Virus record (IMG/VR): IMGVR_UViG_3300008119_000058
Location: 1-20,340 of that record
Length of the DNA stretch: 20,340 bases
Reading direction: 5' to 3' (one strand)
From: a virus
Shown here piece by piece: positions 1 through 19,923 of the stretch; the stretch's first letter is position 1; every line of letters starts with the position of its first letter. The translations under genes were made by a program, and so were the position numbers. The notes below the pieces were generated by a model. The model was not told where the DNA came from, did not search any database, and saw nothing but the letters and a program-made list of their open reading frames with translations.

Positions 1-3000
1 TCAAGCGGGTCAACGGGCTCTTCGGGAACTTCAGGCTCAAGTGGCTCGTCGGGTACATCGGGTGCCAACGGCTCAAGTGGCTCAAGCGGAACAGCAGGTT
101 CTTCAGGAAGTGCGGGTTCTACGGGTTCTTCAGGGTCTTCAGGCACAGCAGGGTCGTCAGGTACGGCAGGTTCTTCGGGTAGTGCGGGCTCAAGTGGCTC
201 TACAGGCTCAAGCGGTACTGCGGGCTCAAGCGGCTCTTCAGGCACATCGGGTGCAAATGGCTCAAGTGGTTCTGCAGGTTCAAGTGGTACTTCAGGAACA
301 GCAGGTTCAAGTGGTACTTCAGGAACGCGAGGTTCGTCAGGGTCATCAGGCTCTACAGGTTCAAGTGGGTCTACGGGTACGTCAGGCTCAAGCGGTTCAA
401 GTGGCACATCGGGCTCGAGCGGGTCTTCAGGCACATCAGGAGCGAATGGTTCAAGCGGCTCTTCAGGAACAAGTGGTTCTTCAGGAAGCACGGGTTCAAG
501 TGGGTCTACGGGTTCATCAGGAACAGCAGGTTCTTCAGGAAGTGCGGGTTCTACAGGGTCTTCAGGCTCTTCAGGAACAGCAGGTTCATCAGGTACATCG
601 GCATCAAGTGGTAGTTCAGGAAGTGCAGGCACATCAGGCGCAAATGGCTCGAGCGGCTCAAGCGGAACGAGCGGTTCTTCAGGAAGCGCGGGTTCTACAG
701 GGTCTTCAGGCTCTTCAGGAACAGCAGGTTCATCAGGCACATCGGGTTCTGCGGGTAGTGCAGGCTCAAGCGGCTCTACGGGCTCAAGCGGTACATCAGG
801 CTCAAGCGGGTCTTCGGGTACATCAGGTGCAAATGGCTCAAGCGGTTCAAGTGGAACAAGCGGGTCTGCAGGTTCAAGTGGTTCTACGGGCTCATCGGGT
901 TCGTCAGGAACTGCAGGTTCAAGCGGTACTGCAGGTTCTTCAGGTTCTACAGGCTCAAGCGGGTCTACGGGCTCAAGCGGAACTGCGGGTTCAAGCGGGT
1001 CTTCAGGCACATCGGGTGCAAATGGCTCAAGCGGTTCAAGTGGAACAAGTGGTTCTGCGGGGTCTTCGGGAACTTCGGGAACAGCGGGGTCAAGCGGTAC
1101 TTCAGGAACTCGGGGTTCATCGGGTTCATCGGGTTCGACAGGCTCAAGTGGTTCAACGGGTACATCAGGCTCAAGCGGTTCGAGCGGAAGCGCGGGTACG
1201 TCAGGTGCAAACGGTTCGAGCGGAACAAGCGGTTCTTCAGGAAGTGCGGGTTCTACAGGCTCTTCAGGCTCTTCAGGAACAAGTGGTTCAAGCGGAACAA
1301 GCGGAAGTGCAGGTTCAAGCGGTTCTACAGGCTCAAGTGGGTCTACGGGTACTTCGGGCTCAAGTGGCTCAAGCGGAAGTGCAGGCACATCAGGTGCAAA
1401 CGGTTCTTCAGGAACGGCAGGTTCTTCAGGAAGCGCAGGTTCAAGTGGGTCTACGGGTTCTTCAGGAACTGCAGGTTCTTCAGGTAGTGCAGGTTCTACG
1501 GGTTCTTCGGGTTCTTCAGGAACTGCGGGTTCGAGTGGAACTTCGGGCTCATCAGGAAGCGCAGGTTCAAGCGGAAGCGCGGGTACATCGGGTGCAAATG
1601 GTTCAAGCGGAACTTCGGGCTCATCAGGAAGTGCAGGTTCTACGGGCTCATCAGGTTCGTCAGGAACTGCAGGCTCAAGTGGAACATCAGGAACGAGGGG
1701 TTCTTCAGGCTCAAGCGGTTCTACGGGTTCCTCAGGCTCCACAGGAACCTCAGGCTCAAGCGGAAGCGCAGGCACATCAGGTGCAAACGGTTCTTCAGGA
1801 ACGTCAGGTTCTTCAGGAAGCGCAGGTTCAAGTGGGTCGACAGGGTCAAGTGGAACATCAGGTTCTTCAGGAAGTGCGGGTTCTACAGGCTCATCAGGTT
1901 CTTCGGGAACAGCGGGTTCATCAGGAACATCGGCATCAAGTGGAAGTTCAGGAAGCGCAGGTACTTCAGGGGCAAACGGTTCTTCGGGTACTTCGGGCTC
2001 ATCAGGAAGCGCAGGTTCTACGGGCTCATCAGGCTCAAGCGGAACAGCGGGCTCATCAGGAAGCGCAGGTTCGAGTGGCTCTACAGGGTCAAGCGGAACA
2101 GCGGGCTCATCAGGAAGTGCAGGTTCTACGGGTTCAAGCGGTTCTACGGGTACATCGGGCTCAAGCGGTTCGAGTGGAAACACGGGGGCAGCGGGGTCAA
2201 GCGGAACGAGTGGGTCTTCAGGTAGCGCAGGTTCAACGGGTTCGAGCGGGTCTTCAGGAACTGCGGGTTCTTCAGGAACATCGGGCACAAGAGGTTCATC
2301 AGGTTCAAGTGGGTCTACAGGTTCGAGTGGTTCTACGGGTACATCAGGCTCAAGCGGTTCGAGTGGAAACACAGGAGCAGCGGGGTCAAGCGGAACGAGC
2401 GGGTCTTCAGGAAGTGCAGGTTCGACAGGTTCAAGTGGTTCTACAGGTACATCGGGCTCAAGCGGTTCGAGTGGAAACACGGGCGCAGCGGGTTCAAGTG
2501 GAACGAGCGGGTCTTCAGGCAGCGCAGGTTCGACAGGTTCAAGTGGTTCTACGGGTACATCGGGCTCAAGCGGTTCGAGTGGAAACACAGGTGCTGCGGG
2601 TTCAAGTGGAACGAGCGGTTCGAGTGGAAACACAGGTGCGGCAGGTTCTTCGGGAACTTCAGGCTCAAGCGGCTCAAGTGGTAACACAGGTGCGGCAGGT
2701 TCAAGCGGAACGAGCGGTTCGAGTGGAAACACAGGAGCGGCAGGTTCTTCGGGAACTTCAGGCTCAAGCGGCTCAAGTGGTAACACAGGTGCGGCAGGTT
2801 CAAGCGGAACGAGCGGTTCGAGTGGAAACACGGGTGCGGCAGGTTCATCAGGGACTTCAGGTGCAAACGGTGCTGCGGGCTCAAGCGGAACAAGCGGTTC
2901 ATCAGGAACTTCAGGCGCAAACGGAGCGGCAGGTTCTTCAGGAACTTCAGGTTCGAGCGGAAACACAGGTGCTGCAGGTTCATCAGGTACGAGCGGTACG

Positions 3001-3738
3001 AGCGTATCGGTAAGCGGTACTACAAACAGAATCGTTAAGTTCACTGCGGGCGCAAATGGAGCGGCAGGTTCCTCGGGAACTTCGGGTACACGTGGTTCAA
3101 GTGGAACATCGGGTGCAAATGGAGCAAATGGTTCATCAGGTACGTCAGGCGCGAATGGAGCAAACGGTTCATCAGGTACATCAGGCGCGAATGGGGCGGC
3201 AGGTGCTGCAGGTTCATCAGGTACGAGCGGTACGAGCGTAGCGGTGAGCGGTACGACAAACAGAATCGTTAAATTCACTGCATCGACCACGATAGGAAAC
3301 GCAAACGCGTCCGACGATGGAACGACATTCGAAGTATTGAATACGGTTGGATTTAAGGCAGCCAAATCGTTAGCGGTAGGTGCTTTGTCACCATCCGCAA
3401 CCACAGGACGAATTGATGCTTCAAACGACATCGTAGCGTTCTCTACATCAGACAAACGATTCAAAGAAAACGTGAAGCGAATTGAAAACGCTCTCGAGAA
3501 AATCAAGACAATCGGTGGATACTCATTCGATTGGCGCGAGGAAGGCTTCGAGGCTCACGGATTCAAAGGAAGTGATGTCGGAGTAATCGCGCAGGAAATC
3601 GAATCAGTGTTGCCCGAAATCGTGAAGGTGAAAGCCAACGGATTCAAGGGTGTACGTTACGAAAAAATTATCGCCTTGGTGATTGAAGCAATCAAGGAGT
3701 TGGATGACAAAGTTGAACAATTAAAGAAGCAACAGTAA
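1..3738 (+). CDS. Collagen-like tail fibre protein with C-terminal S74 intramolecular chaperone (5' partial)
   Basis: Frame 1 is open from the left edge to the TAA at 3736-3738, so the N-terminus is missing. Codons up to about 2990 encode roughly 330 Gly-X-Y triplets in which X and Y are almost only Ser, Thr, Ala and Asn, with rare Arg (GTR triplets at 322, 1105, 1690, 2284, 3085) and no Pro. A globular part follows from about 3226 (VSGTTNRIVKFTA, then GNANASDDGTTFEV), a module typical of fibre heads. The last 96 residues (from 3448) match the peptidase S74/endosialidase chaperone family: SDKRFKENVKRI start, DVGVIAQEIESVLPEIV core, VRYEKIIALVIEAIKEL end. Known members trimerise fibres and cleave themselves before the conserved Ser. 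I infer a long trimeric receptor-binding fibre. GTG at 3244 is an internal codon, not the start. The gene is far more G+C-rich than its neighbours. Confidence 0.93.
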   Translation, partial: SSGSTGSSGTSGSSGSSGTSGANGSSGSSGTAGSSGSAGSTGSSGSSGTAGSSGTAGSSGSAGSSGSTGSSGTAGSSGSSGTSGANGSSGSAGSSGTSGTAGSSGTSGTRGSSGSSGSTGSSGSTGTSGSSGSSGTSGSSGSSGTSGANGSSGSSGTSGSSGSTGSSGSTGSSGTAGSSGSAGSTGSSGSSGTAGSSGTSASSGSSGSAGTSGANGSSGSSGTSGSSGSAGSTGSSGSSGTAGSSGTSGSAGSAGSSGSTGSSGTSGSSGSSGTSGANGSSGSSGTSGSAGSSGSTGSSGSSGTAGSSGTAGSSGSTGSSGSTGSSGTAGSSGSSGTSGANGSSGSSGTSGSAGSSGTSGTAGSSGTSGTRGSSGSSGSTGSSGSTGTSGSSGSSGSAGTSGANGSSGTSGSSGSAGSTGSSGSSGTSGSSGTSGSAGSSGSTGSSGSTGTSGSSGSSGSAGTSGANGSSGTAGSSGSAGSSGSTGSSGTAGSSGSAGSTGSSGSSGTAGSSGTSGSSGSAGSSGSAGTSGANGSSGTSGSSGSAGSTGSSGSSGTAGSSGTSGTRGSSGSSGSTGSSGSTGTSGSSGSAGTSGANGSSGTSGSSGSAGSSGSTGSSGTSGSSGSAGSTGSSGSSGTAGSSGTSASSGSSGSAGTSGANGSSGTSGSSGSAGSTGSSGSSGTAGSSGSAGSSGSTGSSGTAGSSGSAGSTGSSGSTGTSGSSGSSGNTGAAGSSGTSGSSGSAGSTGSSGSSGTAGSSGTSGTRGSSGSSGSTGSSGSTGTSGSSGSSGNTGAAGSSGTSGSSGSAGSTGSSGSTGTSGSSGSSGNTGAAGSSGTSGSSGSAGSTGSSGSTGTSGSSGSSGNTGAAGSSGTSGSSGNTGAAGSSGTSGSSGSSGNTGAAGSSGTSGSSGNTGAAGSSGTSGSSGSSGNTGAAGSSGTSGSSGNTGAAGSSGTSGANGAAGSSGTSGSSGTSGANGAAGSSGTSGSSGNTGAAGSSGTSGTSVSVSGTTNRIVKFTAGANGAAGSSGTSGTRGSSGTSGANGANGSSGTSGANGANGSSGTSGANGAAGAAGSSGTSGTSVAVSGTTNRIVKFTASTTIGNANASDDGTTFEVLNTVGFKAAKSLAVGALSPSATTGRIDASNDIVAFSTSDKRFKENVKRIENALEKIKTIGGYSFDWREEGFEAHGFKGSDVGVIAQEIESVLPEIVKVKANGFKGVRYEKIIALVIEAIKELDDKVEQLKKQQ
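61..2157 (+). repeat. 63-residue higher-order repeat of the Gly-X-Y shaft
   Basis: The Gly-Ala-Asn triplet marks a super-repeat. Its Gly codons start at 61, 250, 439, 637, 826, 1015, 1204, 1393, 1591, 1780 and 1969. The spacing is 189 bp (21 triplets) in eight intervals and 198 bp (22 triplets) in two. Around each landmark the pattern is similar (GTSGANGSSG, then GTSGSSGSAG). Synonymous codons differ between units, so protein periodicity is better kept than DNA identity. The right boundary is approximate. Confidence 0.85.
2176..2868 (+). repeat. Gly-Asn-Thr-type repeat zone with a recent 99-bp tandem duplication
   Basis: The shaft here is marked by Gly-Asn-Thr-Gly-Ala-Ala. Gly codons start at 2176, 2365, 2473, 2581, 2626, 2680, 2725, 2779 and 2824. 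The spacing shrinks from 189 to 108 bp, then alternates 45 and 54 bp. The last steps form a 99-bp unit (2626-2724 and 2725-2823); by eye the two copies differ at one base. This fits growth by unequal crossing-over or slippage near the 3' end of the shaft. Confidence 0.85.
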
Positions 3739-4415
3739 TGGCAGTACCAACATCAAATATAAGTATGAGCGCAATTTACGGGGAGGCCAACGTAGGTGGC
3801 CCCCCGAGCGACTTGGCGGTTAGTGACTTATTCAAATTGTCATATTTTGAAAGTAACGCTTTCGGTGGTCCCTTGGCATATAATGCTTGGGGTATTTATG
3901 GAAATGCGAGTGGCGCAGACAGAATTTATGGACTTTCGGCAAGTAACACCAATAATAACTTTAATCAATTTGCGAGCAAAGTTTACTATATGGATAATTC
4001 AACGTATGCTAACTATGTAGATGTAGTCAACAATTTAGTAGCACCCCCCCCTCCTGACCCACCTGATTTGAACGATATAACTGTTTTTTGTAGATTATAT
4101 GATTCTACAGGTGTTTATCAATATAGTTTGTTTCAGTCCTTAATAGCCGCAGGTGGTAGTGCAAGTCAAATATTTAGTAACACGACTGAACCTATTTTGG
4201 CAGTAGCATATTGGGAAGTTCAGTTTCAGCCATCGAGTCCTATGTTTGCAGGTACAACGTGTAATATAGATATAAATAATACAGGCAAAGTCAGTGGTGG
4301 AACTATCAATGCAATGGGAATTACAACCTTTTCATTTAGTACATACGGTAGTGAATTAGTAGCATCAAATTCATCAGGGTACATTGGCACTTACTTTGAT
4401 ATTTCAATAGGTTAA
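3738..4415 (+). CDS. Putative tail-associated structural protein
   Basis: This 225-residue protein starts one base into the fibre stop codon (TAATG), so it is translationally coupled to the fibre. It opens with MAVPTSNISMSAIYGEANVG, a style of N-terminus common in small tail proteins of Bacteroidetes and marine phages, and is rich in Gly, Ser, Asn and aromatic residues, as in beta-rich virion proteins. A Pro-rich hinge (PPPPDPPD, about residues 103-110) separates two halves. The hinge lies on a run of eight C residues (4044-4051), and a C6 run lies at 3800-3805. I see no signal peptide, membrane segment or catalytic motif. The virion role is inferred from position and composition. Confidence 0.75.
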   Translation: MAVPTSNISMSAIYGEANVGGPPSDLAVSDLFKLSYFESNAFGGPLAYNAWGIYGNASGADRIYGLSASNTNNNFNQFASKVYYMDNSTYANYVDVVNNLVAPPPPDPPDLNDITVFCRLYDSTGVYQYSLFQSLIAAGGSASQIFSNTTEPILAVAYWEVQFQPSSPMFAGTTCNIDINNTGKVSGGTINAMGITTFSFSTYGSELVASNSSGYIGTYFDISIG

Positions 4416-4444
4416 GTAAATTTGAAGTGAATAAAAATGTAACT

Positions 4445-4702
4445 ATGGAAAAAATATTATTATCAGAAGAAGAATTAAATGAATCACGAATCATTTCTCA
4501 AATTCAAAATGACTTGAATTCTCAAATCGCGACTTTCACAAGACAAATTGAATCGTTAAAATCCAAGCGTAAATATGCAATCCAAGAATTCACAGAATTA
4601 GAGGAAAAAAACAAAGTCTTTTATGAGCATATTACTAAGAAATACGGTGTTGGAAGCATTGATTTGGACACGGGTGAGTTTACCCTAATAAATATCAAAT
4701 GA
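4445..4702 (+). CDS. Small coiled-coil phage protein of unknown function
   Basis: The 85-residue product is highly charged. Its middle (about residues 10-55) has heptad-like spacing expected of a coiled coil, and it ends in KYGVGSIDLDTGEFTLI; a similar Gly-Ser-hydrophobic-Asp-x-x-Thr-Gly-Glu-Phe ending occurs in small proteins near phage tail and lysis genes. I chose ATG 4445. An in-frame GTG at 4427 would add six residues but has no better ribosome-binding site. Its stop overlaps the next start as ATGA. Function is unknown; a virion-assembly or scaffold role is a guess from location. Confidence 0.7.
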   Translation: MEKILLSEEELNESRIISQIQNDLNSQIATFTRQIESLKSKRKYAIQEFTELEEKNKVFYEHITKKYGVGSIDLDTGEFTLINIK

Positions 4703-5172
4703 TAGTTGTTTTTTATGGGAAAAGAAACTCAGGCAAGACAACTCTTTGCCGTGAGTTTTATGGTTGGGTAAAACAGAATTTGCCTCTCAGATGTCATTAC
4801 TTAGATGCAGACAAACTTCGGTTTGTTTATGGTCTAAAAGGATTCTCTGAGCAAACAGAAAGAGCATTGGTACAAAAAGCGATGGAAATATCGCGTTATG
4901 AGGAAAGTTTAAATGACGTTGTTTTGATTAGTATTTCTTTTGCATATAAGGACCAAAGAGAAGTTTTTGAAGAAAACAGGGGAATTTTATGGATACCTTT
5001 GACACACGATGAGTCTCAAAGGCCCACGAATAAAAAAGAATTTGAAAACGCTCAGTTCGAAAAATTGGAAAATGAAATTGACACATCGCAAAATGATGTG
5101 AAATCGGCATTAAATACAGTAATCCAACGCTACAAAGATTTTTGTGTAACTTCGCAATACAAGGGGAAATGA
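4699..5172 (+). CDS. P-loop kinase resembling adenylylsulfate (APS) kinase
   Basis: This 157-residue protein has a Walker A loop at residues 7-14 (GKRNSGKT) and then a CysC-like order of elements: YLDADKLR at 34-41, GLKGFSEQTER at 45-55, and VVLISISFAYKDQREVFEE at about 74-92, which corresponds to the APS kinase strand carrying the S-x-Y-x-x-x-R segment. True CysC phosphorylates adenylylsulfate to PAPS. Here the loop is GKRNSGKT rather than the usual GLSGSGKS, so the substrate may be another nucleotide or sugar nucleotide. The start overlaps the upstream stop (ATGA), and the gene sits in a structural operon with no other sulfur-metabolism gene. The fold call is good; the substrate is unknown. 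Confidence 0.72.
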   Translation: MIVVFYGKRNSGKTTLCREFYGWVKQNLPLRCHYLDADKLRFVYGLKGFSEQTERALVQKAMEISRYEESLNDVVLISISFAYKDQREVFEENRGILWIPLTHDESQRPTNKKEFENAQFEKLENEIDTSQNDVKSALNTVIQRYKDFCVTSQYKGK

Positions 5173-5390
5173 CAACTCAACAGCAACAAAGCGCAATGAT
5201 TGAAAAATGGGTAAATCGCATACTTCTTGGAATATGCGCATTTTTCTGTGCTCAATTATTTGCGGATATGAAAACTCAACGTCACGACATAGAAGAAGTG
5301 AAATTGAGTAACGCGAGAATTGAAACGGAAATAAAGTACATCAGAGAAATGGTGGAGCCGTATCGAAATAATAAAGTAGTTAACAATTAA
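5169..5390 (+). CDS. Small one-TM protein with C-terminal coiled coil, holin/XhlA-like
   Basis: The start is ATG 5169, overlapping the upstream stop (ATGA) with AAGGGG just before it. An in-frame TTG at 5142 is less likely. The 73-residue product has a Gln-rich N-terminus, one membrane segment (about residues 14-33) and a charged amphipathic tail (about 38-65) ending IKYIREMVEPYRNN. This layout resembles XhlA-type membrane-associated proteins of phage lysis and tail regions, with the order TM then coil. Two more small membrane proteins follow. Function is inferred only from topology. Confidence 0.65.
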   Translation: MTTQQQQSAMIEKWVNRILLGICAFFCAQLFADMKTQRHDIEEVKLSNARIETEIKYIREMVEPYRNNKVVNN

Positions 5391-5396
5391 AAAATT

Positions 5397-5699
5397 ATGC
5401 CAATACCTGTAGCAATAGCGGCAGCATTAATCACAACGGCAGGTAGTACGGCTGTAGGTGGTTTAGATGTTGTCTCAAAACGAAAACTCGAAAAAAACCT
5501 TGCTAAATTAAACGCTGCGGAGGCCGAGGCTCTTCAAAAGCAATTAGCAAAAGAAAAGGATGCTCAAACCAAATTGATTTTACTGCAGGATGCTGCGGAT
5601 AAAGCGCAAAAAAGAAGCACGACGAATATAATTATTGGCTCTGCAATCGGCTTAATTGGCTTGATTGCGGCAATTATTGCATTAAAAAACAAAAAGTAA
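5397..5699 (+). CDS. Two-TM small membrane protein
   Basis: The 100-residue product has a hydrophobic Ala-rich segment at residues 3-22, a long charged helical region rich in Ala, Lys, Glu and Gln (about 28-72), and a second strongly hydrophobic segment at 77-96 ending in KNKK. The hairpin-like topology with a helical spacer would fit a holin, a tape-measure accessory or a membrane scaffold. No family is recognised. It starts six bases after the upstream stop and its own TAA overlaps the next ATG (TAATG). Confidence 0.65.
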   Translation: MPIPVAIAAALITTAGSTAVGGLDVVSKRKLEKNLAKLNAAEAEALQKQLAKEKDAQTKLILLQDAADKAQKRSTTNIIIGSAIGLIGLIAAIIALKNKK

Positions 5700-6016
5700 T
5701 GGAGTTTTCAAAAGAAGTAAAAAACGCGGTCATCATTGCAGTTGCGACAATTACTTTATATGTGCTGTTGAAACCAAAGAAAAATAGTCTTAGCAAGCCT
5801 ATGAAGGCGACTAAAGACGAACTGAGTCAAAAGCAAAATGCTCGAACCATTTTGGATGCTTACTTAAATGCAGTTGATGCAAAAGAATCATCAACAGCAC
5901 TACAGAAATTGAACGCAATTTTTGCGGACGAATATTCAATGAAGGTGTATAAAACAAAGAGTGGCAGTTATGTAGCGCGAACCTTAGACGGTAAAGATGT
6001 ATTAGTAGCAAAATAA
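5699..6016 (+). CDS. One-TM anchored small protein, unknown function
   Basis: This 105-residue protein has an N-terminal membrane segment (residues 9-24) followed by KPKK, suggesting an inner-membrane anchor. The soluble part (about 35-105) looks like a small alpha/beta domain ending in KVYKTKSGSYVARTLDGKDVLVAK. It is coupled on both sides by TAATG overlaps, so it belongs to the operon starting at the fibre. No catalytic motif is visible and I do not recognise the family. Confidence 0.62.
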   Translation: MEFSKEVKNAVIIAVATITLYVLLKPKKNSLSKPMKATKDELSQKQNARTILDAYLNAVDAKESSTALQKLNAIFADEYSMKVYKTKSGSYVARTLDGKDVLVAK

Positions 6017-7736: not shown

Positions 7737-7952
7737 TTATTTTGATTTAATTAGGGTTAGGGCTTCTTTCATCATCCTGACTTTTTTCAAATCTGAGGGC
7801 GTGTAGCCGTGTATGTCAAGCAACCTATTAAAAGTTGCTATTCTCTGTTCAATCAGAATTACAGATTCGTCTTTGGTGTGATTTGGAAGCAACTCATTTA
7901 CAATTTCAATAGCATCTTTTGCTTCGGGAAAAGGAATAAAGGTTTCGTACAT
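7737..7952 (-). CDS. Small hypothetical protein between recT and a glycosyltransferase fusion
   Basis: The 71-residue product (MYETFIPFPEAKDAIEIVNE start) is predicted helical and charged, with no cysteine motif or membrane segment. Its ATG shares a base with the upstream stop (TAATG on the minus strand), and recT starts seven bases after its stop. The tight coupling suggests it is real and made together with recT. The function is not recognisable. Confidence 0.65.
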   Translation of the reverse strand: MYETFIPFPEAKDAIEIVNELLPNHTKDESVILIEQRIATFNRLLDIHGYTPSDLKKVRMMKEALTLIKSK

Positions 7953-9169
7953 TATGGTTTTGGATTGATGTCAACAAGTGATTTCTGACCTATGTGAATG
8001 AATAAATTTTCTTTGGTTAAAATTTGTTGTCTGTTTGGATATTCATCGGCAAATTTCAATTCCCATCCGTGGTCTTTGTGAAATATTTTGTTCTCAAAAA
8101 CGCGTCTGCGAAAAATTGAAGGGTTGTTACCATAATTGTTCATTTTTACCTCTTGCCATTTTAAAAATCCATTTTGCATTTCATAAAAGTGCCTGTAATT
8201 TTTTGGGAAAGGGTTTTTCCAATAATATTCATTCAAAGAAGTTTCTGACTTGATTTCGTCGGATTGAATTTCAAATACCTGAGAGAACATAATTTGGTCA
8301 AATGCGGAATGCTTTTTCAAATAATTGATGTGTTTGCCTAAATCGAGGGGTTTCACTGATTCCCAATCGTCTTCAAGCAAAAATACAAATTCGCTTGGTC
8401 CCATTAGGTGTTTAATCATATTGAACTTATCTACATAATCAAATTGACCATCACTGTTAAAAGTTACTACGTGCGCTTTTTTACCGAACAAGGCATCCAA
8501 ATACAATTCCATTTTATATCGCTCCTCAGAAGTACTTCGGTCATCCAAAACCCAAACCTCATTGAACATAGTCCTGTAGTTTGGATTGTGTTTCTGAAGA
8601 GATTTCAGTGTGCGCAGGAAATAGTCAAAACGTCTGCCTGATGAAATTATCAAATTAGGGGCCACGTGAGGCTCGTAATTGATGTAATAGCCATATTCGT
8701 CATCTCCATACAATAACTTCAAATTAGGATACCTATTGGCCATAACTTCAGGTGTTAAATCAGGTTGATGGTGAGTCTCATAAATGTTTCCCTCATATTC
8801 GCCCCTGTGCTCCAAATATGGAACAGCCACCAAGCATTTAATATTGTAGGTTTCTATTGTACCCATCAACAAAGTTGCATCAGATGGTGTGAGATGCTCA
8901 AGTATGTCGCCTAAAATGATGTAATCATACATCAAAATGTTAACGGTCATAATACTTTGCTGATAAATGGTATTGTATTTTGCTGCAAGGTTAAATTGAG
9001 GAATGTAGGGGTCCCAAATTTCCACTGCGTCCATTGGAATTTTTAAAAGGTCCGCATAGGTTCCTGAGCCCGCTCCAACGTCAAGGACGCGGGGATTAGA
9101 GGTGTTCTGTAGTTCTAAGAGAATGTGCTCTCGAACATTGTGTTTGAATTTGTTATTTGAATAGGGCAT
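7952..9169 (-). CDS. Methyltransferase-glycosyltransferase fusion protein
   Basis: The 405-residue product (from ATG 9169) has two parts. The N-terminal part is a class I SAM-dependent methyltransferase: VLDVGAGSG at residues 28-36 and LGDILEHL at 86-93. The C-terminal part starts near residue 172 with IISSGRRFDYFLRTLKSL and has GT-A features: VWVLDDRS at 205-212 and FLLEDDWE at 263-270, the latter a DxD-like metal and nucleotide-sugar site. The likely role is adding a sugar and methylating the glycan or an acceptor; substrates are unknown. ATG 9169 lies one base after the upstream stop, which suits this operon. An in-frame ATG at 9226 would overlap the nuclease by 56 bp and add 19 residues. 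It is an unexpected cargo inside a recombination cassette. Confidence 0.87.
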   Translation of the reverse strand: MPYSNNKFKHNVREHILLELQNTSNPRVLDVGAGSGTYADLLKIPMDAVEIWDPYIPQFNLAAKYNTIYQQSIMTVNILMYDYIILGDILEHLTPSDATLLMGTIETYNIKCLVAVPYLEHRGEYEGNIYETHHQPDLTPEVMANRYPNLKLLYGDDEYGYYINYEPHVAPNLIISSGRRFDYFLRTLKSLQKHNPNYRTMFNEVWVLDDRSTSEERYKMELYLDALFGKKAHVVTFNSDGQFDYVDKFNMIKHLMGPSEFVFLLEDDWESVKPLDLGKHINYLKKHSAFDQIMFSQVFEIQSDEIKSETSLNEYYWKNPFPKNYRHFYEMQNGFLKWQEVKMNNYGNNPSIFRRRVFENKIFHKDHGWELKFADEYPNRQQILTKENLFIHIGQKSLVDINPKP

Positions 9170-13388: not shown

Positions 13389-14432
13389 TCAAATTGTTCC
13401 ACCACGTTTGAATTTGTCAATTGCGGCTGTGGTTTGTGCAATAATCGAAGCCCGTTCTGCTAAGTATTGTTTCTTCGTCAGAATCTTTGCATCATACAGT
13501 CCTTTTGAATCAGCCAATAAACGCTCTTGACGGTCAAGGGCCTTTTGAATGTTTTCTGCACGACGCTTATCGAATTTGGGCTCGGCTTTTTTCTGAGGTT
13601 CTTTTTTGATTGGTTCCTCTTTAGGTGCAACTTTTACTGTGGGTCTTTCTCGGCCACGAATGTCTTTTTTACGAGCCTTTTCCCTTTTTTGCTTGGCAAG
13701 TTCTTTTCGACGTTTTACGATTTCCCTCCGTCGCGACCTACGCTCCTCCAATGTTTCTTCCGAAAGGACCATCGGTTGCGCCTCTTCAAAAGTTTCCGAA
13801 GGTATGATTTGCTGTCCACCGACATAAATGGTAAACTGAATGAAATAAGAATCAGGTCTGCCATCGTCTTGCATATTTGGACGTACTCTAACCTCTCCCT
13901 CCCAATAAGGCTCACTTTCATTTTCAGGCATTTCGCCCTGAATGTAGTCACGAACACTTTCAACGATTTCGTTTAAGCCACTACCCTCATAGGTGTATTC
14001 GCTCAGTTCTATAATTCCCGTGCTACCGTATTCACCCGCGTTAACTTCAAACCGTAGATTTTTACCTCCTGTTTCTGCAGTCAAGTCAACATCAATAAAA
14101 TTGTCAAGGTCAAACCAAAAAACACCACTTAATAAAGTGATTGGAATACTTAATGGATTGACGAAATCTCCGACATTGATTACACCCGACCCTGTCAAAG
14201 CGCGGTCTACTGATTCACGGATATCAGCAATTTTGACCTCTCGGCTGCTCAAGCCTTTGTATTCAGGGTAAATTTTTTCTTTAATGAAGGCCGTAAGTTC
14301 TTTGCCTTTTAAAGGTTTTTCCTGTTTTTCAAGTTCTTTGGAAACAGTCTTTCTGACCTTTTGATAGAGACGGGAGGCCCTCGAAATTTTTCGTCGAGTT
14401 TCCTGAGTTACTTTTTTTTTCTTGTTAGCCAT
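13389..14432 (-). CDS. Large hypothetical protein with coiled-coil and charged C-terminal region
   Basis: This 347-residue protein has a basic helical N-terminus (MANKKKKVTQETRRKISRAS), a central domain of about 100-215 that looks beta-rich and acidic (FWFDLDNFIDVDL, then GQQIIPSETFEEAQ), a very basic Lys/Arg/Glu stretch (about 225-305) predicted as coiled coil or disordered, and a C-terminal helix ending in KFKRGGTI. It could bind DNA or a virion component, but no family is recognised. A 78-bp gap with a promoter-like element lies upstream. Confidence 0.7.
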   Translation of the reverse strand: MANKKKKVTQETRRKISRASRLYQKVRKTVSKELEKQEKPLKGKELTAFIKEKIYPEYKGLSSREVKIADIRESVDRALTGSGVINVGDFVNPLSIPITLLSGVFWFDLDNFIDVDLTAETGGKNLRFEVNAGEYGSTGIIELSEYTYEGSGLNEIVESVRDYIQGEMPENESEPYWEGEVRVRPNMQDDGRPDSYFIQFTIYVGGQQIIPSETFEEAQPMVLSEETLEERRSRRREIVKRRKELAKQKREKARKKDIRGRERPTVKVAPKEEPIKKEPQKKAEPKFDKRRAENIQKALDRQERLLADSKGLYDAKILTKKQYLAERASIIAQTTAAIDKFKRGGTI

Positions 14433-14445
14433 TAGTGAAGGGATG

Positions 14446-14477
14446 CGAAGGTATATGATGTTGAATTTGCAAGCAAA
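14446..14477 (-). promoter_or_regulatory. Bacteroidetes-type promoter before the 347-residue gene
   Basis: On the minus strand TTTG (14477-14474), 20 bases, then TACCTTCG (14453-14446), again with TTCG in place of TTTG. The start codon at 14432 follows after 13 bases. It shares spacing and the TTCG variant with the element at 13349-13379, which strengthens both. Confidence 0.45.
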
Positions 14478-14510
14478 TAAATTTTTACACTATAGTCTTA
14501 GGCCCTGTAA

Positions 14511-14744
14511 TTACGCGGGTTTATACTCTAATGTACCTTGTTCGTCAATATCTACATCTACAAGCATTATGACCAATCGTTTTGCGGGGTTTCTACTGTC
14601 TTGAAATACGACGGGCCTGTCTTTAGAAAACAGTAAACTCACGGACATATCCTTAGGGTTGCTTATTGTCTCGGTCCAAGGATTTGACATTACTTCAAAA
14701 AATTCTTCGTTTCCAAGTGTGATTTTAAATGCGGTATGTTTCAT
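14511..14744 (-). CDS. Small hypothetical protein, first gene of the minus-strand block
   Basis: The 77-residue product (MKHTAFKITLGNEEFFEVMS start) is acidic and beta-rich, ending VIMLVDVDIDEQGTLEYKPA. It has no cysteines, signal peptide or membrane segment. It is the promoter-proximal gene of the leftward block and lies next to the divergent region at 14745-14902. A position like this is often taken by early host-takeover proteins, but nothing in the sequence proves that. Confidence 0.6.
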   Translation of the reverse strand: MKHTAFKITLGNEEFFEVMSNPWTETISNPKDMSVSLLFSKDRPVVFQDSRNPAKRLVIMLVDVDIDEQGTLEYKPA

Positions 14745-14779
14745 ATTATGTATTTTTGCGTGTTATCCATTGTGATTTA

Positions 14780-14813
14780 GGGGTGGTCATTGCTCAATTT
14801 GGCCGCCCCTTTT
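14780..14813 (+). other. G+C-rich hairpin in the divergent intergenic region
   Basis: GGGGTGGTC (14780-14788) pairs with GGCCGCCCC (14801-14809) with two G-U pairs around a 12-base loop, followed by TTTT. Read rightward it looks like an intrinsic terminator; read leftward it would fall in the leader of the minus-strand block. The rest of the 158-bp gap (14745-14902) holds a TATTTTTG box at 14751-14758 and the promoter box at 14888-14895. Confidence 0.5.
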
Positions 14814-14887
14814 CGTTGCAAATATGAATAGAATCCCGACCATTTGGTTTCACAATTTGGTCAATGAATAGTTTTCTTTGTAAGTGT

Positions 14888-14895
14888 TATATTTG
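14888..14895 (+). promoter_or_regulatory. Perfect TAnnTTTG -7 box before the lysis block
   Basis: TATATTTG matches the Bacteroidetes -7 consensus. It ends seven bases before the ATG at 14903, so the transcript would be leaderless or nearly so. No TTTG is found at the usual 19-20 base distance upstream. Confidence 0.6.
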
Positions 14896-14902
14896 TAAGT
14901 AA

Positions 14903-15538
14903 ATGAAGGTGAACCGTTTTACCCTGATTGTGATTTCTGCCTTTTCGGTAGGGGTTCTTTATGCTTTGGGTAAAAGCCCTAAAAAATTTAATCCCCTTGG
15001 CAAGAAGGCAATTTTTGTTGGTGACTCACATACAGCGGGTTTTGGATGGGGATGGCAAGACGCACTCGCCAAAAAATATGGATTCACCATTCAGCAAAAT
15101 TTAAGTAAGGGTGGATACCGAACTGACCAATTGCTACCGATTCTTCAAGACTACCTCAAAACAGCAAAGGGTGCGGAAATCTTATTTATCTATGCAGGGG
15201 CAAATGATAATTTCAGTTTGGTACAAAATCAAAAAGCAACTCAGAATGTACAGAAAATGGTGGATGCAGGGCGTAATGCAGGCATTGACAATATCTATGT
15301 AATTTCAGGATACAGGTCAAGCAAGGTCATTTATGATTTGAAGAGGTATGGTGACTACATTGAAAAGAGTGATGCATACAAAGAGGGGCTCGCAAAAAAT
15401 ATCAAAAACGCTGTAGTGGTTCCAATTTGGGAAGAAGCGGATTACAAAATGAGCACTGATTCATTACACCTTATCCAATCGGCCCAAAAGAAATTTGCTG
15501 ATTATATCGGGGCGCAAATATTTAAAGACACCAAATGA
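14903..15538 (+). CDS. Membrane-anchored SGNH/GDSL hydrolase
   Basis: This 211-residue protein has an N-terminal hydrophobic segment (residues 6-22), then an SGNH fold with all four blocks: GDSHTAG at 40-46 (nucleophile Ser42), Gly at 70-71 in SKGGYRTDQL, GAND at 99-102 (Asn101) and DSLH at 186-189 (Asp186/His189). SGNH enzymes remove acyl groups from esters and glycans. Placement as the first gene before an endolysin suggests de-acetylation of peptidoglycan or of an envelope polysaccharide. The segment could be a signal anchor; there is no clear cleavage site. It ends ATGA-overlapped with the next gene. Confidence 0.87.
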   Translation: MKVNRFTLIVISAFSVGVLYALGKSPKKFNPLGKKAIFVGDSHTAGFGWGWQDALAKKYGFTIQQNLSKGGYRTDQLLPILQDYLKTAKGAEILFIYAGANDNFSLVQNQKATQNVQKMVDAGRNAGIDNIYVISGYRSSKVIYDLKRYGDYIEKSDAYKEGLAKNIKNAVVVPIWEEADYKMSTDSLHLIQSAQKKFADYIGAQIFKDTK

Positions 15539-16227
15539 AATTAACCGAAACTGATAAAAAAATCATTTTGATTGTGGCGGCCCTCTTTGGGGTTGTAGTT
15601 GCTGTTAACGTATCAGCGGCTCCATCAAATCGAAAAGCAAAAAGCAAATGGAGGTTTTCAAAATACCCTCTCCTTTGGGATACAGTTTTGCGCGGTGAGG
15701 CAAAAACTTGGAATGATTACAACTTCTATACTTCAAAGTTGAATTCACGGGTGAATGCAAAAGACACGTTACCCTTTTCAAGCAAATTACTCACACAAAT
15801 GACCATAGGAAAGGTTATTGAATACCAAAGTATGTCGAGGTCAGGTAAAGGGCAATTGTGGGCAACAGGGCACTTTCAAATCATTCCATCAACTCTGAAA
15901 TCAATGTATGGAAAAGCGCGGTTAAATCTTGATTCAATTTACAATGAACAGAACCAAACCAAAATTGCTGATGCGCTAATCGATGCTGAAAGCACTTTGC
16001 CGAAGTATTTGAATGGTAAAATTGACGACACCGATGTTAATTTGAAAAAGGCTGCGCTTGACATTGCAACAGTTTGGTCAAGCATAGGAGTACCTTATGC
16101 TCTTACAAATTATAAAGGTGTGTATCGTCCATACAATGCATCGTATTATGGAGGCGATAAGGCAAGTGTCAGCACCGAAGTCGTTCAAAAAGTTTTACGT
16201 GAACAACGTAAAGCACTACAAGGTTAA
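15535..16227 (+). CDS. Lysozyme-like endolysin with N-terminal signal or signal-anchor
   Basis: The 230-residue product starts with a hydrophobic Val/Ala/Gly-rich segment (10-29) ending VSAA, compatible with signal peptidase cleavage or a releasable signal anchor. The catalytic part has RGEAKTWNDYN with a candidate catalytic Glu55 and, later, ATGHFQIIPSTL (110-121), the glycosidase motif seen in lytic transglycosylase and lambda R-like lysozyme folds, then helices ending near 185. It should cut the glycan strands of peptidoglycan. It overlaps the upstream gene by ATGA and meets the minus-strand gene tail to tail at 16224-16227. Fold is supported by motif order; exact family is not settled. 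Confidence 0.82.
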   Translation: MKLTETDKKIILIVAALFGVVVAVNVSAAPSNRKAKSKWRFSKYPLLWDTVLRGEAKTWNDYNFYTSKLNSRVNAKDTLPFSSKLLTQMTIGKVIEYQSMSRSGKGQLWATGHFQIIPSTLKSMYGKARLNLDSIYNEQNQTKIADALIDAESTLPKYLNGKIDDTDVNLKKAALDIATVWSSIGVPYALTNYKGVYRPYNASYYGGDKASVSTEVVQKVLREQRKALQG

Positions 16228-16484
16228 TCGAAATCGGTCATTATAAATATTGGGTATTCATCATCGTTACGAAGTGAACCCAACACATTGAAATCGAAGT
16301 GTTCAATAGCGTCTTCAAGAGTCATACCATCGTCTTCTACCAATGTTTGAATTGCTAAGTCATAATCATAAATCAAACGATAGTGTTGCAAGTCAACACC
16401 AATAACAGCCTTGTCAAAACCATCAGCCTTGAGAAATTCCACGTCGGGATACGTCTCGATAATTTGTTCTAATTTGTTGTTCAT
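16224..16484 (-). CDS. Conserved small phage protein on the opposite strand
   Basis: This 86-residue acidic protein has the sequence style YPDVEFLKADGFDKAVIGVD, a Tyr-Asp pair, then DDGMTLEDAIEHFDFNVLGS and a short hydrophobic end. I recognise this layout as a widespread small phage protein of unknown function. It is the only minus-strand gene between 14745 and 19923; its stop overlaps the endolysin stop by four bases. The gene to its right is divergent, sharing a 64-bp gap. No clear promoter box is visible for it. Confidence 0.78.
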   Translation of the reverse strand: MNNKLEQIIETYPDVEFLKADGFDKAVIGVDLQHYRLIYDYDLAIQTLVEDDGMTLEDAIEHFDFNVLGSLRNDDEYPIFIMTDFD

Positions 16485-16536
16485 ACAGCGTAATTTGGGC
16501 GTAAAGTAAAGAAAAAAAATTGATTAATCCATTAAC

Positions 16537-16544
16537 TATATTTG
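16537..16544 (+). promoter_or_regulatory. Perfect TAnnTTTG -7 box before a membrane protein gene
   Basis: TATATTTG ends four bases before the ATG at 16549, the same octamer as at 14888-14895. Transcription would begin at or beside the start codon. No -33 TTTG lies at the usual distance; an A run occupies that place. Confidence 0.6.
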
Positions 16545-16548
16545 TATT

Positions 16549-17058
16549 ATGAATAAAAAAGAAATCATACTTATAGCCGCAGCCGCTACAGGATTATACT
16601 TGGTGCTTCGTGGATTGAAAAAAAATAATCCAAAAGGTCTTGGAGAAGAGTTTAAGAATGCTATCGGGGATGTATTCAAGAAAAAGAAGACTTTTGGTCA
16701 ACGCGCGAATGCAACGCGATGCGAAACCAATCTTGAGCGGTTAGGTCGTTTGTTTCCGAATGAGGACCAATACAATGCTGAAGTGGGAAAAGCATATCAG
16801 ACCCAAGGCTCTAATTTTAACTCTTGGGCAAAATCTGACGCTAAACCTTGTTTTGTAGTTGGTGCGGACCAAGGAGGTCTTCAAGGCGGGGTAAATAACT
16901 TCACTGCAAATGATGATTTCTTTAACGGCAACGGCTGTAAAAAGCCTATGAAGTCGGCATACAATAATTACATCGGCTCAGATGGACAAGGAACTTACTT
17001 CAATGCACACGGGGATATGTCGTTAGACAATCTTGTACGTTCATACAAAAGACCATAA
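16549..17058 (+). CDS. Membrane-anchored hypothetical protein of the lysis block
   Basis: The 169-residue product has an N-terminal membrane segment (residues 5-21) followed by a Lys-rich stretch, then a soluble domain with three cysteines (58, 101 and 130) and a Gly/Asn-rich part (about 104-145). Disulfide use in the periplasm is possible. No catalytic motif is recognised. It begins just after a strong -7 box and its stop overlaps the next start (TAATG), linking it to the holin-like gene. A lysis or envelope role is inferred only from context. Confidence 0.68.
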   Translation: MNKKEIILIAAAATGLYLVLRGLKKNNPKGLGEEFKNAIGDVFKKKKTFGQRANATRCETNLERLGRLFPNEDQYNAEVGKAYQTQGSNFNSWAKSDAKPCFVVGADQGGLQGGVNNFTANDDFFNGNGCKKPMKSAYNNYIGSDGQGTYFNAHGDMSLDNLVRSYKRP

Positions 17059-17276
17059 TGATGAATTTTGAAAATTTAAAAAAGAACACAACAGCAATTA
17101 TTGCAATAATTATCCTGACTTTAAGTTATGCAATTTTATTCAGCATAATTTTTTGGGATTTTCCAACAGACCAAAAAGATATATATTTTACTATCGCAGG
17201 CGGGGTTACATCTATCGTGACTATGATAGTTTCATATTATTTTGGGTCAAGTAAAAATCAAAACGACGAAAAATGA
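17058..17276 (+). CDS. Holin-like two-TM protein
   Basis: This 72-residue protein has two membrane segments (about 12-33 and 43-62) with a short acidic turn between, and ends SYYFGSSKNQNDEK. The YFGSS plus charged tail is familiar from small phage holin-like membrane proteins. Holins form lesions in the inner membrane and time lysis. It is coupled upstream by TAATG and downstream by ATGA to a peptidoglycan-directed gene. Holin assignment rests on topology, tail motif and location, without a test of function. Confidence 0.72.
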   Translation: MMNFENLKKNTTAIIAIIILTLSYAILFSIIFWDFPTDQKDIYFTIAGGVTSIVTMIVSYYFGSSKNQNDEK

Positions 17277-17854
17277 AATTTGACCAATCAAAAATCGAAA
17301 AGACCCTAAAGAATAAAGCATATGCGTATTTCGAAAATGGGGAGTACAATTTGAATATCGTAGGTATTCGGAATTCAGACACAGGTAAGCGAGTGACCAA
17401 TCAATTTGATGATTGGATGACAATTTCTTACAAAGAGAATGGAGTTTGGAAATATTTAGAGTGGCCTTGCACCGTAGACAATGGTGATGGTAGTGCGCGT
17501 CTCGTAGAAGGGCAATATCGAGGTTCATTCACCATTGGATTGCACCAAGGGAAATACAAGGCATTGAAGCAATGTAAGCCTCTGAAAGTTTACAGAGATT
17601 GGAACTTGAAAGATGGGACTTATGATGAAAGCAAAATTTATGATGATGTCGCAGGATTAAACATTCACAAAGCAGGAGCAGATAGCCAACAGGTTAACAA
17701 TTGGAGTGAGGGATGTCAAGTCTTTAAGAAATCAGCGAATTTTGATGAATTTATGAAAATTATTGACCTATCAGTACCGTTGCACGGCAAAATTTTCACC
17801 TACACCTTGATAAACAGTAATGACATAAATATTGCAAATACCCCAATAGTTTAA
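17273..17854 (+). CDS. L,D-transpeptidase-like (YkuD-type) phage protein
   Basis: The 193-residue product carries NIHKAGADSQ (129-138, His132) and NWSEGCQVF (143-151, Ser145, Cys148). His and S-x-G-C in this order are the active-site signature of YkuD-like L,D-transpeptidases, which use Cys to cut and form peptidoglycan peptide links. The N-terminal part (LNIVGIRNSD) with a later FDDWMTISY matches phage proteins of this type. There is no signal peptide, so access to the periplasm would need the holin next door. It may work as a peptidoglycan hydrolase and is a second endolysin candidate. It overlaps the holin-like gene by ATGA. Confidence 0.7.
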   Translation: MKFDQSKIEKTLKNKAYAYFENGEYNLNIVGIRNSDTGKRVTNQFDDWMTISYKENGVWKYLEWPCTVDNGDGSARLVEGQYRGSFTIGLHQGKYKALKQCKPLKVYRDWNLKDGTYDESKIYDDVAGLNIHKAGADSQQVNNWSEGCQVFKKSANFDEFMKIIDLSVPLHGKIFTYTLINSNDINIANTPIV

Positions 17855-17857
17855 ATT

Positions 17858-18142
17858 ATGACAGCGGCAAAAAAAGTAAGTGCTAACACCTTGCCTGTTA
17901 GTTTTGACCAATTTAGAAAAAACCCTGTGGCAGCAGTCGCATTTTGTATGCTTGCGGCAGTAGGCTATCTTTATTACGATTTGAGAAATGGCTATAAAGA
18001 CCAAATAGACTCTTCAAACAAAAAAATCGATAATTTGGATGTGAAAATTGACAAATTAGGTAGTGCATTAAAAAAGTCAGATTCTGCGCTTAGTGCAGCA
18101 ATAACTGAATTAAGAATTATTAACACAATGAAAAAATTATGA
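17858..18142 (+). CDS. One-TM protein with coiled coil
   Basis: The 94-residue product has an Ala-rich membrane segment (about 23-40) and a long charged helix with heptad character (about 48-85, DSSNKKIDNLDVKIDKLGSA). The topology is like XhlA or an inner-membrane spanin partner, with a periplasmic coil. It begins three bases after the upstream stop and overlaps the next gene by ATGA. It may link the inner membrane to the next two envelope proteins. Confidence 0.66.
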   Translation: MTAAKKVSANTLPVSFDQFRKNPVAAVAFCMLAAVGYLYYDLRNGYKDQIDSSNKKIDNLDVKIDKLGSALKKSDSALSAAITELRIINTMKKL

Positions 18143-18540
18143 AAAAGACATTAGTAATTTTTGGATTATTATTTATTTTCTTGGAAGTGTTTCAACCATT
18201 AGGGGCTATCAACGCCCCTAAAGTTGATGAATTAGAGACTATGCTAAAGAAAATTGAAAACAACTTGAAAAGTGCCTCACAGGTAACATCTTTGGCCAAA
18301 GCGAAGGGTGAAAAGTTGGTTGCAAGTAAAGTTCAAGAAAAAAACGAATTGAAGAAAAGCGTTCAAAAACTCACTGAAAAGGTTGAAATTTTTGCTGTGA
18401 AAATGACTGAAGCAGGAATAGATACCGCTACAAAAACTGATAATTTTAGATACGAAGGCCCATTGTACGAAGAGTGGCTTGAATATCAAAAAAATGGAGG
18501 CGAATCTGATTTCGAATACTACAGACTATACAAAAAATGA
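18139..18540 (+). CDS. Secreted coiled-coil protein
   Basis: This 133-residue protein has a classical signal peptide (MKKTLVIFGLLFIFLEVFQP, cleavage possible near residue 23), then about 70 residues of Lys/Glu-rich helix with heptad spacing, and a Tyr-rich acidic end (YEEWLEYQKNGGESDFEYYR). It should be periplasmic and elongated. It lies between an inner-membrane coiled-coil protein and a lipoprotein with a C-terminal TM segment, so a role in joining membranes at lysis is plausible. ATGA overlaps join it to both neighbours. Confidence 0.68.
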   Translation: MKKTLVIFGLLFIFLEVFQPLGAINAPKVDELETMLKKIENNLKSASQVTSLAKAKGEKLVASKVQEKNELKKSVQKLTEKVEIFAVKMTEAGIDTATKTDNFRYEGPLYEEWLEYQKNGGESDFEYYRLYKK

Positions 18541-18959
18541 AATTGATAAAAGCATTTATCATTCTGTTGACGTTAACAGGATGTTCGGCAAAATGGCACT
18601 TGAATCAAGCAATAAAGAAAAATCCCGCGATGGCGCAAATTAGCGTCTACGGGATTGATACTATTTTTGTTCGGGATAGTATTTTGATGACAGACACGTT
18701 TACCACGACAGAAGTCGATACAGTGACTATAACCAAGGATGGGGTGACAACTGTTGTTTACCGTGACCACGATGTTATTCGCGTCAGGACAATTGTAAAG
18801 GCTGATACTATTCGCTACACAAAGACAATTACCCTACCACCACAAATCAAATTTATTGATAGAAAAAAAGGCTACGAGAAGTATGCTCCTTATTTGGGTT
18901 TTTTACTTCTGATTCTTTTGATGATTTCGATTCTAAAAAACACACGGAGGGGTTGGTGA
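18537..18959 (+). CDS. Candidate u-spanin: lipoprotein with C-terminal membrane segment
   Basis: The 140-residue product has a lipoprotein signal (LTLTGC, lipobox Cys16) and a single C-terminal membrane segment (about 118-133, LGFLLLILLMISIL) followed by a basic end. The middle (40-105) is almost entirely Thr/Val/Ile/Asp-rich beta-strand-like sequence. N-terminal lipidation plus a C-terminal TM segment is the defining layout of unimolecular spanins such as T1 gp11, which bridge and fuse inner and outer membranes at the end of lysis. It overlaps its upstream neighbour by ATGA and its downstream neighbour by TGATG. Topology is strong; fusion activity is inferred. Confidence 0.78.
   Translation: MKLIKAFIILLTLTGCSAKWHLNQAIKKNPAMAQISVYGIDTIFVRDSILMTDTFTTTEVDTVTITKDGVTTVVYRDHDVIRVRTIVKADTIRYTKTITLPPQIKFIDRKKGYEKYAPYLGFLLLILLMISILKNTRRGW
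18946..18950 (+). promoter_or_regulatory. Canonical ribosome-binding site deciding the 18959 start
   Basis: GGAGG, followed by GG, lies eight bases upstream of ATG 18959 and inside the end of the candidate u-spanin gene. Most genes here lack such a site. Confidence 0.65.
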
Positions 18960-19165
18960 TGTCTTTAATTAAGAACAAGGATTACTTTATCATCGGTTGC
19001 TTAGGAAAGGCTCAAAGAGAACCTATTCGCCAATGGATGAAAGACAATAACAAAACTTCACCCGTAGTTCCTGAAGAGGGACCAAATGCAAATGATTGCA
19101 TTACTTTGGTGGATTATAAAGATTGGATAAAAACTCAGCAATGGCCAAATGGATATCCAACGTAA
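18959..19165 (+). CDS. Small hypothetical protein with a true Shine-Dalgarno
   Basis: The start is ATG 18959, sharing a base with the upstream stop. It is preceded by GGAGG at 18946-18950, eight bases from the ATG. This is the only strong canonical ribosome-binding site I see in the window; an in-frame TTG at 18953 is unlikely. The 68-residue product (MSLIKNKDYFIIGCLGKAQR start) has no recognised domain; its C-terminal part is Trp- and Pro-containing (YKDWIKTQQWPNGYPT). It is the last gene of the block. Confidence 0.66.
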   Translation: MSLIKNKDYFIIGCLGKAQREPIRQWMKDNNKTSPVVPEEGPNANDCITLVDYKDWIKTQQWPNGYPT

Positions 19166-19181
19166 TGTAGTAAATATTTAC

Positions 19182-19189
19182 TAAATTTG
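19182..19189 (+). promoter_or_regulatory. TAnnTTTG -7 box for the tRNA and methyltransferase unit
   Basis: TAAATTTG matches the Bacteroidetes -7 consensus and ends eight bases before the tRNA's first base, the expected distance for transcription to start at or near the mature 5' end. No -33 TTTG is seen at 19-20 bases. Confidence 0.6.
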
Positions 19190-19197
19190 CGTTCTAT

Positions 19198-19269
19198 TGC
19201 GGGGAAGTGTATTGGTTGCATTTGTGGCTCATAACCACGAGGTAGTGGGTTCGATTCCTACCCCCGCAA
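19198..19269 (+). tRNA. tRNA with CAT anticodon (Met elongator or Ile2)
   Basis: The cloverleaf folds by eye: acceptor TGCGGGG (19198-19204) with CCCCGCA (19262-19268) and discriminator A19269; a short D arm; anticodon stem TGTGG/CCACG with loop CTCATAA; variable loop AGGTA; T arm GTGGG-TTCGATT-CCTAC. The anticodon is CAT. The T1-A72 pair and lack of three G-C pairs in the anticodon stem argue against an initiator. Elongator Met and lysidine-modified Ile2 cannot be told apart here. CCA is not encoded. The methyltransferase gene starts 13 bases later. Confidence 0.92.
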
Positions 19270-19281
19270 CAAATTACAAAT

Positions 19282-19923
19282 ATGGAACTTGAAAAATATG
19301 TGTATCCCGAAAATCACGGTGCGTTAGTAGAGGCCTTTTATGATGAAATTTATCACGGCCACGAATACGACAGGTATTTCAAAATTCAACCACACGACAT
19401 TGTTATTGATTGCGGAGGCTTTGTAGGCCTTTTTACCAATTATGCGCTATCTCAGGGCGCGAGTACCGTTATCACCGTAGAGTGCGAACCTGAGTATTGG
19501 AAATGCTTGATTAAAAATGTCAAGTCGTATGACGCTCAAGTAATATTTGGGCGCGTGTTTCAAGACGACATACCAACTACGAATCCTGATGTGGCTCCAT
19601 CATATTCAATTGAAGGAATAATGAATCTGAAAAATCTACCTAAGGTCGATATGGTGAAGATGGATATTGAAGGAGCAGAATGGGGCGTTTTAATTAATAT
19701 GGATGATGATGTGATGAAGCGGGTGGACAGATGGGCGATTGAAGTGCATTTGGAGTGGAGTCAGAATGACACGGTGTGGGCAGGTCACGGTAGAGACTTT
19801 GACGGGCACCTTTTAAGCAAACTTGTTTTCGTGATGGAGAAATTCTCCAAGAATGGATTCAAAGTCAATTATGAGCAGATACACAAGAGTTGCAGACTTG
19901 CAATGTTGTATGCATACAAATAA
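19282..19923 (+). CDS. FkbM-family SAM-dependent methyltransferase
   Basis: This 213-residue protein has the FkbM layout: DIVIDCGGFVGLFTNYALSQ (SAM-binding motif I, about residues 39-58), ITVECEPEYW (about 64-73) and VDMVKMDIEGAEW (about 122-134), the last being the family hallmark DIEGAE. FkbM enzymes O-methylate hydroxyl groups on sugars and small molecules. It lies directly downstream of the tRNA and shares its promoter and the strong terminator at 19953-19974. Together with the methyltransferase-glycosyltransferase fusion at 7952-9169 it suggests glycan methylation in this phage, though the acceptor is unknown. Confidence 0.88.
   Translation: MELEKYVYPENHGALVEAFYDEIYHGHEYDRYFKIQPHDIVIDCGGFVGLFTNYALSQGASTVITVECEPEYWKCLIKNVKSYDAQVIFGRVFQDDIPTTNPDVAPSYSIEGIMNLKNLPKVDMVKMDIEGAEWGVLINMDDDVMKRVDRWAIEVHLEWSQNDTVWAGHGRDFDGHLLSKLVFVMEKFSKNGFKVNYEQIHKSCRLAMLYAYK

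Follow-up and report, generated by a model that had tools for sequence, protein, structure and literature searches.

Genes at the Locus

The window, by which is meant the whole stretch of 20,340 nucleotides that was analysed, is an IMG/VR fragment that cuts the gene of a collagen-like fibre shaft, the remainder of which runs on upstream (Table 1). The part of the shaft encoded in the window has 1,245 residues, and its 458 Ser and 149 Thr (607 in all) bear out the hundreds of such residues reported in the first-pass annotation of this DNA. Gly-X-Y triplets account for 1,056 residues, X and Y being mostly Ser or Thr, with no Pro in the repeats. The top family matches are phage tail-fibre or baseplate proteins, and the two marks of a collagen-like fibre, Gly-X-Y repeats across hundreds of residues and a C-terminal Peptidase_S74 domain, are both present. 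Opposite the shaft, the minus strand contains an open frame of 1,168 codons (window 3-3506) that would encode a Pro/Glu-rich product; this frame is a composition artefact of the shaft repeats, and a similar antisense frame of 3,337 codons occurs at another locus (L105).

The complete gene is found in G001, a contig of 74.7 kb that is 99.99% identical to the window over 15.7 kb and extends upstream of it, the first base of the window being base 54,701 of G001. There the shaft (45923-58474) has 4,183 residues, including 1,612 Ser and 571 Thr, and 3,588 residues lie in Gly-X-Y triplets; the shaft of another relative, G002, reaches 5,338 residues. In the tracts examined, Ser is the commonest residue at the Y position (47-100%), and Thr stands mostly at X.

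Table 1. Features of the window and of the gene cassette that precedes it in G001.
Feature	Position	Strand	Basis or remark
Collagen-like fibre shaft, 3' 30% of gene	1..3738	+	Frame open from window edge
Peptidase_S74 intramolecular chaperone domain, shaft C-terminus	3448..3627	+	PF13884, E 1.1e-16
MT-GT, 405 aa from MPYS	7952..9169	-	Longest ORF to 9226, 424 aa
N-terminal SAM methyltransferase of MT-GT	about 8672-9169	-	PF13489, homologues and AlphaFold2 model
C-terminal putative GT-A/GT2-like glycosyltransferase of MT-GT	about 7955-8671	-	PF00535 under cut-off, motifs
FkbM-type O-methyltransferase, 213 aa	19282..19923	+	PF05050, TIGR01444
P0001, GT4 + FkbM, 656 aa	upstream of shaft, outside window	same as shaft	
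P0002 (FkbM-X), FkbM + C-terminal domain without known family, 587 aa	upstream of shaft	same as shaft	
P0003, GT4 + TibC-type, 715 aa	directly upstream of shaft	same as shaft	

Upstream of the shaft, G001 carries a cassette of three genes on the same strand. P0002 and P0003 overlap by 4 nt, and P0003 overlaps the start of the shaft gene by 8 nt, an arrangement that resembles translationally coupled operons. The TibC-type and MT-GT proteins of G002 are 90-91% identical to their counterparts. The left end of G002 (L085 501-6167) also carries another group of GT2, FkbM, and TibC-like genes, which was not seen in the G001 contig; its P0006 scores 137 bits with TIGR04414, under the cut-off. G001 also encodes a small GTSG-repeat protein (38386-39267, or L082 18386-19267) two genes ahead of P0001, and the product of the next gene (39267-40037) has a similar N-terminus.

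A Protein O-Heptosyltransferase Homologue Next to the Shaft

The second half of P0003 matches the TIGR04414 equivalog model with 315.3 bits against a cut-off of 200 (E 5e-94) and aligns over its full length with the TibC structure 4RAP (E 3e-58). TibC is a protein-serine O-heptosyltransferase that modifies Ser and not Thr, with a catalytic Asp110, sugar-binding Lys230 and Trp305, and an iron finger of four Cys (PMC4358343). The whole BAHT domain of TibC and Aah (TIGR04414, PDB 4RAP/4RB4) is retained in P0003: the counterparts of the three residues are Asp426, Lys548, and the Trp of a GLSW motif, and these positions are invariant in 111 of 111 homologues. All four iron-finger Cys are present, as they are in 110 of the 111. 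At the position of Pro300, which sets donor stereochemistry in TibC, P0003 has Gly, and Arg286, although P0003 retains it, is substituted in 30 of the 111 homologues; the sugar may therefore differ from that of TibC. By its score, P0003 is a full member of the TibC/Aah family of protein-serine O-heptosyltransferases, and by homology its donor would be a heptose.

As in TibC/Aah systems, the enzyme gene adjoins that of a presumed acceptor, which is rich in Ser. The present enzyme differs in being encoded by a phage and in its fusion to a GT4 domain, or elsewhere to MT or FkbM domains. The characterised members typically act on autotransporters, whereas the neighbour of P0003, and the acceptor proposed here, is the Gly-Ser/Thr-Ser tract of a collagen-like phage fibre. 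The prevalence of Ser at the Y position of that tract agrees with the restriction of TibC to Ser (PMC4358343).

The main rival to this proposal is that the glycosyl- and methyltransferases alter the surface polysaccharide of the host (LPS or O-antigen), for instance to block superinfection, and lie near the fibre since both concern receptors. Phage glycosyltransferases and heptosyltransferases are usually interpreted in this way (PMC7029224; PMC10747093), and GT4 and FkbM families are frequent in polysaccharide clusters. Set against it is the placement of the key enzyme in the protein-O-heptosyltransferase clade, above a curated cut-off, while LPS heptosyltransferase models score far weaker on P0003. 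A role in host LPS modification is considered improbable, also in view of the bacterial genomes described below.

Linkage of TibC-Type Genes to the Shaft in Viruses

A scan of IMG/VR with a six-row alignment of TibC-type sequences yielded at least 574 relatives. Outside the window's species group, a Ser/Thr-rich Gly-X-Y ORF was found at 33 of 76 TibC-type loci, and at 32 of the 38 viral loci for which 5 kb of upstream sequence was available. When the enzymes were clustered at 70% identity, 33 of 41 informative clusters, which are those with usable flank and include bacterial and shaft-selected loci, had a shaft ORF, and the other eight had none in the stretch seen. No such ORF occurred at 45 control viral loci (a random 16-mer draw, 423 kb) or at 10 loci related to the window through its exonuclease. 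These exonuclease relatives (42-51% identity) lack shaft, MT-GT, and FkbM alike and serve as negatives and nothing more; within its 37 kb, G007, which is among them, carries TibC-type genes and no shaft. The usual gene order is shaft, a GT4 protein of about 900 residues with the motif IAPHLSTGG, sometimes an FkbM gene, a GT4 protein of about 317 residues, the TibC-type protein of about 399 residues, and a T4-like tail sheath.

The association was also found in the reciprocal direction. Among 42 shaft-bearing records of at least 30 kb, picked by their repeat DNA, a TibC-type gene is present in 21, vs. 0 of 22 random records (P = 1.5e-5, a value that is only indicative because the sequences are not independent), and in 12 of these 21 a repeat ORF lies within about 10 kb of the gene. 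The other half of the shaft-bearing records are without a TibC-type gene; many of the records are fragments.

Part of this pattern might reflect mere neighbourhood, fibre genes and enzymes sharing the variable tail region of T4-like phages with no enzyme-substrate relation. Tail regions are indeed variable and rich in glycosyltransferases (PMC7029224), and many of the loci come from one lineage. However, the link holds inside that lineage: among T4-like relatives identified by their tail sheath, a shaft is present at 10 of 13 loci with a TibC-type gene vs. none of five without (P = 0.007, likewise indicative only, given the non-independence of the sequences). It is also found in unrelated architectures, namely the 735-kb phage LR756501, which encodes the same GT4-TibC fusion at 38% identity, and the cultured Microcystis phage Mel-JY01, in which a shaft lies 1.7 kb from a 1,227-residue fusion ending in a TibC-type domain, as well as in bacterial genomes. 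Chance neighbourhood is a very unlikely explanation, even less likely than an action on host polysaccharides.

The cyanophage SynMITS9220M01 (L100) was considered as a further case and was not counted, as the second half of its 839-residue GT4-like protein proved on reading to be without TibC motifs. The first 46 residues of that protein are 50% identical to P0003, and annotated genes for ADP-heptose synthesis (kinase, isomerase, and epimerase) adjoin it.

TibC-Type Genes and Repeats in Bacterial Genomes

Phage-type TibC genes are also present on 11 bacterial genome contigs. A DNA pattern of five consecutive Gly-(Ser/Thr)-(Ser/Thr) triplets gave 62 matches across the roughly 35 Mb of nine of the genomes, and 61 of these matches lie on the contig of the TibC-type gene and within about 11 kb of it; in one genome of 5.1 Mb, the single match is 632 bp away from the gene. 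True repeats occur in nine of the 11 TibC-type genomes vs. two of 273 control genomes, which belong to the same class as one of the TibC-type genomes and of which 14 had any match and two encode Gly-Ser/Thr repeats. A number of the neighbouring bacterial proteins are short and have a signal peptide or lipoprotein-like features: at L182, L184, L188, L189, and L190, TibC-type genes adjoin secreted or lipoprotein-like (GTS)n or (GSS)n proteins, in Methylomicrobium, Polaromonas, and other proteobacteria. When TIGR04414 was run over 274 genomes from a single bacterial class, the genome at the centre was the only one above the cut-off; the other 82 matches were weak and partial and were not counted.

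The bacterial genomes are the strongest pointer to the acceptor. The tie of TibC-type enzymes to one repeat motif, which extends to bacteria that have small (GTS)n proteins of secreted or lipoprotein-like type next to the gene, also argues against host polysaccharides as their substrate.

The MT-GT and FkbM Genes of the Window

The first-pass annotation had proposed that the shaft, the MT-GT fusion, and the FkbM gene may form a fibre-glycosylation system extending over positions 1-19923. The idea is borne out in part: glycosylation of the fibre by phage enzymes has strong, if indirect, support and is likely, with the difference that the core enzymes lie upstream and the two named enzyme genes look accessory; nor do the three genes form one locus, the enzymes being 4-15 kb from the shaft.

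The methyltransferase half of MT-GT is solid. Its PF13489 match (E 5e-5) is below the curated cut-off, and a fold search with its AlphaFold2 model retrieves SAM methyltransferases. Only suggested is the glycosyltransferase half, with 13.5 bits for PF00535 against a cut-off of 23.3 (E 0.07) and the motifs DDRS and EDDW; pLDDT is under 50 for residues 272-424, and homologues are few. The fusion that had been annotated at 7952-9169 stands for its first half and probably for its start, since initiation at 9169 (MPYS) is as in fused homologues. A PHROGs search with the protein gave no match.

The FkbM gene was correctly identified, with 36.2 bits for PF05050 (cut-off 22.7, E 8e-9) and 50.8 for TIGR01444 (cut-off 37.7). 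Between MT-GT and FkbM, at 14903-15538, the window encodes a GDSL/SGNH hydrolase with an N-terminal hydrophobic stretch, which may act in lysis or as a sugar esterase.

Whether these two enzymes share in the chemistry of the cassette is less clear-cut. The cassette might glycosylate the fibre while MT-GT and the free FkbM act elsewhere, as cargo genes or on DNA or host glycans, a reading that contests the accessory role alone and whose likelihood is not to be weighed against that of the core explanation. The neighbours of MT-GT are recombination genes (RecT and an exonuclease), and the whole protein is confined to the window's species group; none of the 32 other cassette-bearing records searched contains it. 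It is also missing from the near relative G005 (exonuclease 95% and S74 68% identical), which has kept the shaft and in which only 17 residues match at the site. The FkbM gene, for its part, is found some 15 kb downstream of the shaft, and free FkbM genes are scarce.

On the other hand, the methyltransferase domain alone recurs, fused to TibC-type enzymes: it shares 48-55% identity with the N-terminal domain of such fusions at three loci (L145, L154, and L181), two of which sit downstream of a shaft. Similarly, the nearest homologues of the FkbM protein (35-41%) are encoded inside the cassettes of L120, L121, and L173, the closest being that of L121. On the strength of these relationships, it is plausible that both are accessory, variable enzymes serving the same chemistry as the cassette; action elsewhere is a serious possibility that falls somewhat short of even chances. 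Co-occurrence of the three genes, suggested earlier as a check, is seen in near-identical relatives and in those at 79-93% identity and breaks down in G005; limited to close relatives and with MT-GT dispensable, it is not decisive as proof.

A Model of Fibre Glycosylation

The explanation that we regard as probable is that the collagen-like fibre, of 4.2 to 5.3 thousand residues, is O-glycosylated by enzymes of the phage, those of the upstream cassette forming the core and MT-GT and the free FkbM being accessory. The fibre would be modified in the infected cell before assembly, in the cytoplasm, where ADP-heptose and unassembled fibre coexist. The TibC-type half of P0003 would prime the Gly-Ser/Thr-Ser repeats on serine, probably at the Y position, most likely with heptose from the ADP-heptose of the host. 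The sugar might then be extended by the GT4 and other transferase domains and capped by O-methylation through the FkbM (and MT) methyltransferases, with the window's MT-GT and free FkbM adding variable decorations to it. The probable effect of the glycan is to stiffen or shield the proline-free shaft.

On a broader scale, the evidence leans towards a phage-type TibC clade, often fused to glycosyl- or methyltransferases, that is dedicated to Gly-(Ser/Thr)-Ser repeats and accounts for a widespread, unreported glycosylation, by methylated heptose-based glycans, of phage fibres and of some bacterial secreted (GTS)n proteins. A literature search, with subscription journals and preprints outside its scope, returned no account of phage TibC-type enzymes or of glycosylated Gly-Thr-Ser fibres. 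If the proposal is correct, the fibres of hundreds of aquatic phages are glycosylated by the phages themselves, along a route known so far from adhesive autotransporters, with G-T/S-S as the acceptor sequence motif. Many phage glycosyltransferases, heptosyltransferases, and FkbM methyltransferases now filed as modifiers of host LPS would thereby gain a function, and it would become understandable how a collagen that is thousands of residues long and free of proline might cohere or evade recognition.

Comparison with Known Glycosylated Proteins

A Gly-X-Y repeat with O-linked sugars also characterises Bacillus BclA and other collagen-like glycoproteins of bacteria, and the first-pass annotation had cited BclA as an analogy. 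The window's fibre would share both properties, and a methylated sugar is expected in each case. However, the repeats of BclA contain Pro, which those of the shaft do not, and are glycosylated by other enzymes; BclA is not known to have a TibC-type enzyme. Rather than to this analogy, the sequences point to Ser O-heptosylation of the TibC type. In the cuticle collagen of Riftia, glycosylated Thr stabilises the triple helix, and a sugar at the Y position of the shaft could similarly stand in for hydroxyproline, although the Riftia protein is of animal origin, carries Thr-galactose, and is modified by unrelated enzymes.

Phage virions with glycans have a precedent in mycobacteriophages, in which, according to the passage of PMC12619734 that cites Freeman et al. 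(2023), capsid and tail-tube proteins are glycosylated at their C-termini. Structural proteins of a phage would carry glycans in both cases, as an observation there and as a prediction from genes here. As far as that passage goes, the substrates differ, being capsid and tail tube in the mycobacteriophages and, in the present prediction, a collagen-like fibre with more than 2,000 Ser/Thr residues and a protein-O-heptosyltransferase homologue as the enzyme. The present case would therefore be not wholly new but a variant of virion glycosylation.
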